A stretch of DNA of 40,069 bases from Spirochaetota bacterium (GTDB lineage Bacteria; Spirochaetota; UBA4802; UB4802). Where the stretch lies: positions 1 to 40,069 of the forward strand of contig JAOAIH010000023.1 of NCBI GenBank assembly GCA_026414805.1, read 5' to 3'. Within the stretch, counting starts at the first letter, position 1; each line of letters begins with the position of its first letter. Shown piece after piece: positions 28,528 to 32,295 of this stretch. The notes under the pieces were generated by a model. That model was not told the origin of the DNA. It saw only the letters and a program-made list of their open reading frames with translations, and ran no database searches. Position numbers and translations under genes: made by a program.

Positions 28528-28700
28528 ATTACACCAATGCAGCCTGATATCAGTATTTAATTAAAGATATTTTTTAAAATGTAACTCATTAAAGTGGACA
28601 TAATGCGTGAAAAAAATAACATCATACTCAAGCCTGAATAGATAGAAGTGCAATTTTGGAAACTAATGAATTAAAATTTTTAAAAATAATGCAATTTTAT

Positions 28701-28729
28701 TTGACGTTTTTCATGTAATTTAGTATTTT
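28701..28729 (+). promoter_or_regulatory. Candidate promoter of the ArsM-peptide-radical SAM operon
   Basis: TTGACG (28701-28706), one mismatch from consensus, is followed after 17 nt by TATTTT (28724-28729). It lies 58 nt before the methyltransferase start. No ArsR-like or other operator dyad is obvious next to it. Confidence 0.45.
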
Positions 28730-28786
28730 ATAAAATAATAATATATGGTATTTTCTTTAAAATTTAAGAGATAGTGACACCAAACT

Positions 28787-29428
28787 ATGGCTAAGAATTT
28801 AAACGTTATTGAAGCAATTAATGTACGTTATAGTAAACTTGCAACCACAAGTTGTTGCCTTTCATGTGGTGGTGCATTAAATCACGCTAATCCACAATGT
28901 GGCGAAGTGTGTGTTGATTTGGGTAGCGGTCGAGGAACTGATGTTTTACGCATGGCTGATGCAGTAGGTAAAACTGGGTTTGTGTATGGCATTGACATCT
29001 CTGATGGCATGATATCCACTTCACAGGAGCTATCGAACAAATTTGGATATACTAATGTTGCATTTATTCAATCTGACCTTGCAACCATTCCTCTTGCTGA
29101 TAATACTGCCGACCTGATTATTTCAAACTGCACAATAAATCATGCTCAGGATAAGCAAAAGGTATTTAATGAAATTTACCGTATTCTTAAACCCGGCGGC
29201 AGGTGCATCATTAGTGATATTTATTCTATTGGACAGGTTCCGGATGAATATAAGAATGACCCTGATGCTGTTGCTGAGTGCTGGGCTGGAGCCATTCCTA
29301 AAGATGAATATGTGGCCATCATAGCAAATGCAGGGTTCAGTGATATTGAGATTCTTGAAGAAAGTACACCTTACCAAAAAGGTAAAATTCACGTTGCAAG
29401 TTTTACGTATAGGATTATAAAAAAATAA
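28787..29428 (+). CDS. ArsM-like SAM methyltransferase
   Basis: This 213-residue class I SAM methyltransferase has VDLGSGRGTDV (SAM motif I) and GIDISDGM. It also has the arsenite-methyltransferase hallmarks SNCTINHAQDKQKVF (C115) and AVAECWAGAIP (C165), matching the two As(III)-binding thiols of ArsM, and an N-terminal SCCLSCGG (C23, C24, C27). It is shorter than typical ArsM (about 260-280 aa), ending soon after the core. The ribosome site is weak. It is followed after 30 nt by a tiny Cys-containing gene and a radical SAM maturase. It may methylate As(III), but a role in modifying the peptide or a thiol ligand cannot be excluded. Confidence 0.8.
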   Translation: MAKNLNVIEAINVRYSKLATTSCCLSCGGALNHANPQCGEVCVDLGSGRGTDVLRMADAVGKTGFVYGIDISDGMISTSQELSNKFGYTNVAFIQSDLATIPLADNTADLIISNCTINHAQDKQKVFNEIYRILKPGGRCIISDIYSIGQVPDEYKNDPDAVAECWAGAIPKDEYVAIIANAGFSDIEILEESTPYQKGKIHVASFTYRIIKK

Positions 29429-29458
29429 TCCAGTTAATTTACTATATGAGGTGTTTAC

Positions 29459-29551
29459 ATGAAGTCACTTGTTGCACAAAAGGATAACTCTGTGACCATA
29501 GCACAGTGTTGTGCAAAAATCTCACCAATCGTTGCAGGTTGCCACGATTAA
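29459..29551 (+). CDS. 30-residue cysteine-containing peptide, putative RiPP precursor
   Basis: The reading frame encodes 30 residues: a 16-residue polar leader-like part (MKSLVAQKDNSVTIAQ) and a C-terminal CCAKISPIVAGCHD with C17, C18 and C28. GAGGTG is 6 nt upstream of the ATG, the strongest ribosome site in this operon, and the frame ends with TAA. It lies 30 nt after the ArsM-like gene and just before a stable hairpin and a radical SAM/SPASM gene. That is the usual position of a ribosomally made, modified peptide. It is not a known family to me. An alternative is a small thiol peptide that binds a metal(loid) without modification. Confidence 0.7.
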   Translation: MKSLVAQKDNSVTIAQCCAKISPIVAGCHD

Positions 29552-29560
29552 TCTATGCAA

Positions 29561-29593
29561 CCACCTGTTATTGGTAGCACCAGTAACAGGTGG
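29561..29593 (+). promoter_or_regulatory. Strong intercistronic RNA hairpin between peptide gene and radical SAM gene
   Basis: CCACCTGTTA (29561-29570) pairs perfectly with 29584-29593, and the stem continues through a U-G pair into TGGT/ACCA with an AGC loop, giving about 15 base pairs in 33 nt. The following bases (GACAACTTTAC) are not a U-tract, so it is not a classical terminator. It starts 9 nt after the peptide stop codon and ends 26 nt before the maturase ATG. Such a stem would let the short peptide mRNA be more abundant than the enzyme mRNA. Confidence 0.8.
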
Positions 29594-29619
29594 GACAACT
29601 TTACAAACAAGGTATAACT

Positions 29620-30969
29620 ATGCGCTTATCACACTACACAATTATCAGCAAGCTGTATGATGGAGACAACTATTGCATACTAAATCCGTTAACAAAACAG
29701 GCCGACATCATTACCGGCTTGGAAATGGAGCAGATCATTTCTGGTACCTTTGACCAAAAGCTTCTTAAACAAAAGGGCTATGTTCTAACAGAGGATGAGG
29801 AAAAGCTGCTTTACCGCAGTGCGTATTTGGATTTTTTAGATATGCGCGACAACTCAGAGGTGCAGATCTTTTTTGTACCCTGGTATGCATGCAATTTTGC
29901 CTGTTCTTATTGCTATCAATCAGGATATGAGCACGCATCTGGCTTGCTATCAAAAGAAGTTATTGATGCTTTTTATGGCTATATTACCACACAAATACAA
30001 AAACCAAAATATATTACTCTTTTTGGCGGTGAACCATTACTTGAATCATCACATGCAAAGGAATTAATTTCCTACTTTATTGAAAAAGCTAATAATTACG
30101 GATTGTCATTGGCGATAGTTACCAATGGATATACCCTCAGTTCATATATTGCTACTCTTAAAAAAGCATCAATCCGCGAAATTCAAGTAACACTTGATGG
30201 AACTGAAGAAGTGCACAACGCACGCAGGTATACACACACAAAAGCACCAACATTTGAGGCGATAGTAACCGGAATAGATGTTGCGTTGTCAGAAAATATC
30301 CCCATTAACTTACGAGTTGTTGTTGATGCCCAAAACATAAACAATCTTCCAAAGCTTGCCCAATTTGCCATTGATAGAGGATGGACAAAGAATCCATTAT
30401 TTAAAACACAAATTGGCAGAAATTATGAACTTCACTCTTGTCAGGCAGACAACGCAAAACTTTTTGACAGAGCATCCCTCTATGAAAAAATATATGCACT
30501 GATTATACAACACCCCTATATTTTGCAATTCCATAGACCTGCATTTTCAATAAGCAAATTCTTATTTGAAAATGGCACTATGCCACATCCTCTGTTTGAT
30601 GCATGTCCAGGGTGCAAAACCGAATGGGCTTTTGATTACACCGGCACAATATACCCATGTACTGCAATGGTGGGCAAAAAAGGTGAAGACGTTGGTACAT
30701 TTTATCCTGAAATTTCACTGAATCACGATTATATAAAAGAATGGCAGAACCGCGATATTACCACAATAGAACAGTGCAAGCAATGCGAAAAAAGCTTACT
30801 GTGCGGTGGTGGCTGCGCTGCACTTGCCAAAAATAAAACAGGTCAAATACTTAGCCCTGATTGCAGGCCACAAGATCAATTGCTGTCAATGGGCATTTCA
30901 CTGTATTTTGAAAAAGGCATTACACACGATGGCTATTCTCATACATCAAGTTGTAATTGCTTACGCTAA
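29620..30969 (+). CDS. Radical SAM/SPASM peptide maturase
   Basis: This 449-residue protein has an N-terminal domain of about 80 residues of the kind that often binds leader peptides. The radical SAM motif is C91-x3-C95-x2-C98 (ACNFACSYC), with GGEP at 136-139. The SPASM region has C329, C332, C347, C386, C389, C395, C399 and C415, enough for two auxiliary [4Fe-4S] clusters, and the tail ends SCNC (C445, C447). This architecture is that of anSME-like and RiPP-maturing enzymes that make thioether, C-C or epimerised products. I start at 29620 (AAGG upstream), because the longer frame begins inside the hairpin. The obvious substrate is the 30-residue peptide just upstream. Confidence 0.88.
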   Translation: MRLSHYTIISKLYDGDNYCILNPLTKQADIITGLEMEQIISGTFDQKLLKQKGYVLTEDEEKLLYRSAYLDFLDMRDNSEVQIFFVPWYACNFACSYCYQSGYEHASGLLSKEVIDAFYGYITTQIQKPKYITLFGGEPLLESSHAKELISYFIEKANNYGLSLAIVTNGYTLSSYIATLKKASIREIQVTLDGTEEVHNARRYTHTKAPTFEAIVTGIDVALSENIPINLRVVVDAQNINNLPKLAQFAIDRGWTKNPLFKTQIGRNYELHSCQADNAKLFDRASLYEKIYALIIQHPYILQFHRPAFSISKFLFENGTMPHPLFDACPGCKTEWAFDYTGTIYPCTAMVGKKGEDVGTFYPEISLNHDYIKEWQNRDITTIEQCKQCEKSLLCGGGCAALAKNKTGQILSPDCRPQDQLLSMGISLYFEKGITHDGYSHTSSCNCLR

Positions 30970-30999
30970 CATCATTATTATTACTATAAGGAGAACACA

Positions 31000-32295
31000 A
31001 TGAGTGGAAGAATTAAGTATATCAATGCATCACAATATGAAGAAGTAGTATTAAAGGGTAACAGTGTTATTGTAGATTTTTATTCTACAGAATGCCCGCC
31101 ATGTGAAGCGCTGGCAGCAAAATTTGAGCCACTCAGCGAAATTTTTGGCAACGACATAACATTTATAAAAATATTTAGACAGGAAAACCGCCAATTAGCT
31201 CAATCCTTAGGGATACTGTCATCCCCTACTGTATTATTTTACAAAAATGGTTTGGAAGTAGGCACACGTCTGTCGGGGAGCATAAAACGCTCTGAACTTT
31301 TAGACAATATAAAGCTATTATTACCTGAAAGCAGGTTTAATCAGTTACTATCGCACATACAACCCGTCACCACTTATACTGATATTCTTATTCTGGGAGC
31401 TGGTCCTGCCGGTTTAACTGCAGGTATTTATGCTGCGCAGGCTAAATTAAAAACTATCATCGTGGACACTCAACTTCCTGGAGGACAGGTGCAGACTACG
31501 CATATGGTTTCCAACTATCCTGGTTTTGCCAAACCCATCGAAGGATTTATGCTAATGCATTACATGAGTGAGCAGGCTAAAGAAGCAGGGTGCCAATATA
31601 GAGTTGCTGTTGACGTTACTAGCATAAACCTTAAAGAGAAATATATCATAGTAGACGGGATTGAAACAATATACGCAAAAAAGATAATTCTTGCCACAGG
31701 GTGCAGCTATCGCCAACTCAATGTTCCCGGCGAAGTAGAATACAAGGGCAAAGGCATTTCGTACTGTGCAACATGTGATGCAAAATATTATCAGGACAAG
31801 CATGTAGTTGTGATTGGTGGCGGGAATTCAGCTATTGAAGAGTCACTGTTCATTGCCAAATTTGCACGTGCCATAACAATAGTACATCAATTTGATAAAC
31901 TGCAGGCAAATAAGGAAGCACAGGAAAAAGCATTTGCCAATGAAAAAATATCATTTATGTTTTCCCATGAACCACGGGCATTCATAAAAAATGCTGATGA
32001 CAGTATGACAGTTGAAGTTGAAAATGTGAAAACCGGAAATCGTTCAACAATACTATGTGATGGCGTTTTCATTTTTGCAGGAATGAAACCCAATATTATA
32101 CATGATGACCTGGAAAATATAAATGGATACCTGATAACTGATGAATATATGCACACATCAATTCCCGATGTATTTGCTGCAGGAGATATTCGTTATAAAC
32201 CATACAGACAGATTACAACTGCTGTATCTGACGGAACCGTTGCTGCAATCACCGCGGTTAAGGAACTAGAAGAAGCCACAGTTGTAGCTAAGTAA
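31000..32295 (+). CDS. Thioredoxin-thioredoxin reductase fusion protein
   Basis: This 431-residue protein joins two complete enzymes. Residues 1-110 are a thioredoxin fold with C32-P-P-C35 (ECPPC instead of WCGPC). Residues 125-431 are a thioredoxin reductase, with FAD motif GAGPAGLTAG, the redox pair C256-A-T-C259, NADPH motif GGGNSA and AGDIRYKPYRQI. The thioredoxin-first order differs from the Mycobacterium leprae fusion. It is 30 nt after the radical SAM gene with GGAG upstream, so it belongs to the operon. It could reduce the cysteines of the peptide or supply thiols to the ArsM-like enzyme. Its stop abuts the convergent lipoprotein gene without a spacer. Confidence 0.92.
   Translation: MSGRIKYINASQYEEVVLKGNSVIVDFYSTECPPCEALAAKFEPLSEIFGNDITFIKIFRQENRQLAQSLGILSSPTVLFYKNGLEVGTRLSGSIKRSELLDNIKLLLPESRFNQLLSHIQPVTTYTDILILGAGPAGLTAGIYAAQAKLKTIIVDTQLPGGQVQTTHMVSNYPGFAKPIEGFMLMHYMSEQAKEAGCQYRVAVDVTSINLKEKYIIVDGIETIYAKKIILATGCSYRQLNVPGEVEYKGKGISYCATCDAKYYQDKHVVVIGGGNSAIEESLFIAKFARAITIVHQFDKLQANKEAQEKAFANEKISFMFSHEPRAFIKNADDSMTVEVENVKTGNRSTILCDGVFIFAGMKPNIIHDDLENINGYLITDEYMHTSIPDVFAAGDIRYKPYRQITTAVSDGTVAAITAVKELEEATVVAK

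Follow-up and report, generated by a model that had tools for sequence, protein, structure and literature searches.

A conserved cysteine-peptide unit of RiPP architecture pairing a radical SAM/SPASM enzyme with an ArsM-type methyltransferase and a thioredoxin–thioredoxin reductase fusion, with a possible role in metalloid handling

Introduction

Ribosomally synthesized and post-translationally modified peptides (RiPPs) have mostly been studied as antibiotics with variable cores; the precursors of cofactors such as pyrroloquinoline quinone and mycofactocin have frozen ones. In the SCIFF/CteB, PapB, CefB and TIGR04463 systems (ranthi- or sactipeptides), a radical S-adenosylmethionine (SAM)/SPASM enzyme with an N-terminus resembling a RiPP recognition element (RRE) is encoded beside a short Cys peptide. 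Here we analyse a locus of comparable layout in a 40,069-nt stretch of a Spirochaetota bacterium (contig JAOAIH010000023.1, assembly GCA_026414805.1; the whole stretch is referred to as the window), where four consecutive genes encode an ArsM-type SAM methyltransferase, a 30-residue Cys peptide, a radical SAM/SPASM enzyme and a thioredoxin–thioredoxin reductase (Trx-TrxR) fusion. Unlike the known ranthi- and sactipeptides, the peptide ends in a fixed AQCC-K...GCHD core instead of carrying six Cys in forty-five residues, a Cys at every fifth position or CX3D, and the methyltransferase and Trx-TrxR are near-obligate partners. In the selenobiotic SbtM system (attributed to Lewis, 2021), a radical SAM enzyme is said to work on the Cys or selenocysteine of a tiny peptide, reportedly to give a thiooxazole product; the present set differs in its partners, and no selenocysteine was found in any of its peptides.

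A second group of described systems comes close through the methyltransferase. Pairs of ArsM and radical SAM enzymes produce two organoarsenicals, arsinothricin (ArsQML) and arsenosugar (ArsM/ArsS) (PMC8552651), so that the pairing itself is common to these pathways and to the present set. ArsL, however, reportedly has only three cysteines that are conserved, hence a single cluster, with SAM and As(III) as its substrates, whereas the set described here combines a SPASM enzyme with a ribosomal peptide. We therefore rejected identity with ArsQML, given a SPASM enzyme in place of the ArsL type and no ArsQ-type permease among the recurring neighbours. Canonical ArsM and AS3MT enzymes (PRK11873, CmArsM) have Trx/TrxR as a known reductant and ligand cysteines in register with those of the methyltransferase of the set; the latter, in contrast, is about 213 aa long, has no counterpart of profile positions 1-60 or of the C-terminal part, and always stands beside the peptide.

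Results

The four genes are separated by gaps of 30, 68 and 30 nt, with the order, places and spacing given in a preliminary description of this DNA, and such short distances suggest a single transcript (Table 1). A scan of 84,980 species genomes yielded 189 encoded relatives; the best 80 of these 189 were retrieved, and 16 further ones were added from the window's relatives. The unit is strongly conserved: across the 83 homologous loci with at least 1.3 kb of flank on both sides, the radical SAM gene is accompanied by the methyltransferase in 81, the peptide in 80, Trx-TrxR in 82 and all parts together in 79. Hosts belong to the Bacteroidota, Spirochaetota, Ignavibacteriota, Elusimicrobiota and Bdellovibrionota. 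Methyltransferase and peptide are likewise found in all 15 further, divergent loci, whose radical SAM proteins show 39-69% identity and several of which carry the reductase upstream of the methyltransferase instead. Across the family the radical SAM gene is preceded by a short frame of 30-53 residues ending AQCC(A/S/T)K...GCHD-stop, and the strict peptide motif occurs in 90/95 family loci (once in each of the 90) and 15/15 divergent loci, against 0/21 control loci, far more often than chance would give.

A survey of 345 genomes, all of the window's phylum, addressed how specific the peptide is to this set. The radical SAM subfamily is present in 34 of them, and a degenerate nucleotide pattern describing the peptide core matched 30, with one copy per genome, against none of the 345 for the reversed pattern used as control. 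Twenty-nine of the matched genomes are among the 34 carriers; the thirtieth (G197) holds the whole set, but a contig end truncates its radical SAM gene, and it had been overlooked by the protein search. Five carriers escaped the pattern: four have a Ser after the CC and were probably missed because AGY codons lie outside it, whereas in the fifth the radical SAM gene is no more than a fragment. Three loci that had seemed to lack the peptide (L010, L103 and L107) were rejected as peptide-less, as it was found elsewhere in each genome, 1.6 kb from the methyltransferase gene in one (G055) and adjoining a displaced methyltransferase gene in the other two. At two loci (L154 and L155) the adjacency of methyltransferase and peptide is kept although the radical SAM gene lies apart. 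Methyltransferase and peptide are thus the most tightly associated parts of the unit. Overall, the set is conserved, coding and of RiPP architecture, and the Cys peptide and Trx-TrxR recur beside the same radical SAM subfamily in at least five phyla, a strongly positive outcome of the check on unrelated genomes that the preliminary description had proposed, with the conserved short frame in place in both family and divergent loci.

Table 1. Location and defining traits of the unit in the window
Feature	Position	Strand	Traits
Presumed promoter (upstream intergenic region)	28528..28786	+	-10/-35-like matches weak; no strong site
ArsM-type SAM methyltransferase, single domain, 213 aa	28787..29428	+	PRK11873, 197.6 bits; cysteines C27, C115, C165
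Precursor peptide, 30 aa	29459..29551	+	Leader MKSL(V/I), variable linker, C-terminal core AQCCAK-x-S...-GCHD
Radical SAM/SPASM peptide maturase, 449 aa	29620..30969	+	PF04055; RRE-like N-terminal domain (residues 1-78)
Thioredoxin (CPPC)–thioredoxin reductase (CATC) fusion, 431 aa	31000..32295	+	PF00085 and TIGR01292

The window peptide (MKSLVAQKDNSVTIAQCCAKISPIVAGCHD) has the length and the three cysteines (C17, C18 and C28) that had been ascribed to it, and its start is preceded by the ribosome-binding site GAGGTG; the spirochaete copies have a good site, and all peptide starts are ATG. Over 88 distinct core DNA sequences, the first, second and third codon positions have a mean entropy of 0.26, 0.36 and 1.39 bits, and a variable third position next to near-fixed first and second ones shows that the peptide is coding and constrained. 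Residues M1, A15, Q16, C17, C18, K20, G27, C28, H29 and D30 are invariant in a diverse set; the linker varies in length and holds an extra CC or CxC in 33/91 peptides. No Pfam or NCBIfam model matched the peptide, and two of 21 members gave a weak resemblance (E 0.1) to VcpD, an ArsD-related vicinal cysteine protein. A selenocysteine variant was rejected, as no internal TGA occurs in any peptide core found.

A comparable CC or CxC pair ends the methyltransferase in 37/86 cases. Among 85 loci the extra pair is located in the methyltransferase tail in 35, in the peptide linker in 31, in both in 1 and in neither in 18 (Fisher p 2e-9), a distribution that offers too few phylogenetically independent pairs for a count (0-2 informative). 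The alternation would suggest interchangeable thiol arms on the two partners, although its cases are not phylogenetically independent.

The radical SAM protein, for which we use the ATG start (a GTG at 29590 would give 459 aa), carries both the CX3CX2C motif (C91/C95/C98, in 100% of rows of the family alignment) and the seven-cysteine motif by which SPASM proteins are recognized. Of the eight cysteines of the SPASM region singled out in the preliminary description, C329, C347, C386, C389, C395, C399 and C415 are kept in 99% of rows and C332 in 92%; the CxC tail listed with them accompanies the window protein but is kept in 2/91 relatives, and was rejected as a functional motif. The top NCBIfam models are maturases of Cys peptides (CefB, TIGR04463, PapB, Clo7bot and SCIFF). 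Assignment to any of CefB, TIGR04463, PapB and SCIFF was rejected at the curated cut-offs, as the protein scores 128 bits against 600 for CefB and 126 against 525 for TIGR04463, its nearest models, 122 against 340 for PapB and 92 against 425 for SCIFF. An AlphaFold2 model with a predicted local distance difference test (pLDDT) score of 90.7 begins with three strands followed by three helices, a layout that resembles a PqqD-like RRE at the level of the fold. The nearest solved fold is that of the thioether maturase CteB (5wgg, E 2e-18), and the other best matches are anSME, ChlB with bound leader and SuiB. In a predicted fold of a read-through between peptide and enzyme (locus L004), the first ~8 residues are moderately confident and include a short strand (the first ten average 73 pLDDT), and residues 11-50, comprising linker and core, are placed without confidence (average ~30). 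This model is consistent with leader binding, and no more.

These features support a model where the MKSL leader would bind the RRE-like N-terminal domain, as the fold suggests, and where the enzyme would act on the C-terminal AQCCAKxS...GCHD core. It is very probable that the radical SAM enzyme has this peptide as its substrate. Judging from the family neighbours, the modification would most likely fall on C17, C18 or C28 in the form of one or more Cys-directed bonds, and we consider this direction towards cysteines probable, with a thioether or a related linkage as the expected product. Alternatively, the peptide might be a small regulatory or structural protein, such as an assembly factor for the radical SAM enzyme, whose real substrate would be a small molecule. 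A core that is invariant rather than variable would fit such a role, although the RRE-like N-terminus and the action of the family neighbours on peptides speak against it, and we regard it as very unlikely. The proposal in the preliminary description of an undescribed RiPP-type operon with a radical SAM enzyme acting on its Cys peptide is thus strongly supported by recurrence, the RRE-like N-terminus, the maturase relatives and the lack of a matching family model or of a paper in the literature searched; the modification itself is something we infer. As no exporter or leader peptidase recurs among the neighbours of the loci, an intracellular role is likelier than that of an exported antibiotic, and the mature peptide would be kept inside the cell.

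The methyltransferase falls below the curated PRK11873 (arsenite methyltransferase) cut-off of 263 bits, as do its relatives in the carriers (145-242 bits). Its C27, C115 and C165 are nonetheless in register with C72, C174 and C224 of CmArsM in an alignment to 4kw7/4fr0, three residues that bind As(III) in that enzyme (PMC3877260). C115 and C165 are found in 88/88 rows, and C27 in 31/31 of a diverse selection, with relatives at 36-39% identity among them, so that the ArsM cysteines attributed earlier to this protein extend to all three ligand positions. The window's own genome encodes a separate canonical ArsM above the family cut-off (G000:C4:76475-77269), which argues that the methyltransferase of the set is a dedicated paralogue. 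The Trx-TrxR fusion, correctly recognized in the preliminary description, matches its two domain models (Table 1) and keeps C32/C35 of the thioredoxin part in 100% of rows and C256/C259 of the reductase part in 94%. AS3MT activity is raised by Trx/TrxR/NADPH (PMC12608789); the domains suggest that the fusion, with NADPH, would hold the thiols of peptide and enzymes reduced.

Taken with the cysteines of the peptide, these features point to a possible metalloid step. The mature peptide would provide a set of three thiol or thioether ligands with which to hold a soft trivalent element, As(III) being the likeliest, and the methyltransferase, to judge from its own cysteines, would methylate this element, whether held by the peptide or handed over from it. 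ArsD handles As(III) via Cys12, Cys13 and Cys18 (PMC12607644), and the CC plus C layout of the peptide is comparable, by analogy, to its vicinal pair plus one. A bolder variant, in which the radical SAM enzyme would make a C-As (or other C-metalloid) bond on the peptide and the methyltransferase would methylate the same atom, giving the first ribosomal organoarsenical peptide, appears improbable to us.

Genome context weighs against the metalloid step. Within ~6 kb of 80 loci we found no Acr3, no ArsC and one ArsR (ArsB was not searched for), and an arsenic resistance operon was rejected, since these genes are scarcely or never among the neighbours. Acr3 shows no enrichment in carriers (22/34 against 27/46), several of which have no Acr3 at all, and canonical ArsM shows a weak enrichment (10/34 against 4/46) that is confounded by genus. 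Regulators near the set are of the MarR and Crp types, and the recurring Bacteroidota neighbours (DUF6132, DUF1847, DUF302 and the sulfur-transport proteins YeeE/YedE and TauE) speak rather for sulfur and redox metabolism. The metalloid idea of the preliminary description therefore stood as far as the three ligand cysteines are concerned and was not borne out by genome context. One adjacency to ars genes was found in G055, where the set adjoins arsR-arsM-acr3-arsC.

Two alternatives bear on this evidence. According to the first, the radical SAM enzyme cross-links the peptide, the methyltransferase methylates a thiol or backbone atom of the peptide, and Trx-TrxR keeps the resulting redox or metal-binding cofactor reduced, with no metalloid involved. 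The tight pairing of methyltransferase and peptide, the invariant single-copy core, which resembles a cofactor precursor, and the sulfur and redox neighbours in place of ars genes all favour this account, which nevertheless leaves unexplained why even methyltransferases at 36-39% identity have all three ArsM ligand cysteines in register; we hold it to be possible, though doubtful. The second would have the peptide, modified or not, act as chaperone or thiol donor, taking the place of glutathione in supplying the methyltransferase with As(III), for simple detoxification to volatile methylarsines. It draws on the three invariant cysteines in both partners, on Trx-TrxR as reductant and on the ars island of G055. 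Plain detoxification, however, would need no radical SAM maturase, a canonical ArsM is already present in the window's genome and no ArsR control was seen, making this version unlikely.

Returning to the metalloid step, the ligand cysteines, Trx/TrxR, the likeness to ArsD, the known ArsM-radical SAM pathways and G055 are set against the missing ars context, and because of this balance we give even odds that arsenic, as As(III), or a similar metalloid is the substrate element.

Further observations concern the surroundings of the set. In many Bacteroidota loci (L031-L110), a membrane protein of the DUF6132 family and a lipoprotein resembling thioredoxin are encoded beside or between methyltransferase and peptide. 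They lie upstream of the radical SAM gene, at a distance of ~1.2 kb, and point to a thiol step in the periplasm in these loci. Downstream of the set, ~2.8 kb from where the radical SAM gene starts, ~25 loci encode DUF1847 proteins and ~20 encode DUF302 proteins (L038, L044, L074 and others). At the G055 locus (L153, G055:C75:3500-12500), the complete arsR-arsM-acr3-arsC operon is convergent to the set, whose thioredoxin part is without active-site cysteines and whose reductase part is missing. Finally, 26 loci (e.g. L057:4450-4887) encode an IS1595-type transposase zinc-ribbon protein immediately upstream of the set, a possible route of spread.

Discussion

Radical SAM RiPPs are a known kind of system; the peptide family described here, with its obligatory ArsM-type methyltransferase and Trx-TrxR partner, is undescribed in Pfam, NCBIfam and the literature searched, a search that left most subscription journals outside. 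To the full chain, in which the radical SAM enzyme modifies the peptide at its cysteines, the methyltransferase acts on a metalloid held by the product and Trx-TrxR keeps the thiols reduced, we assign a probability of about 0.45.

What sets this unit apart is a single-copy peptide core frozen across at least five phyla and coupled with an enzyme that carries an arsenic-binding site, a combination that suggests conserved peptide-based handling of arsenic or a similar element over that range. If the metalloid step is real, it would join arsenic biochemistry and RiPP biosynthesis, and these bacteria would have a thiol ligand for metalloid methylation that is genetically encoded; if it is not, the unit would still represent a peptide product that is both widespread and uncharacterised, with a pair of substrate and enzyme open to direct testing.

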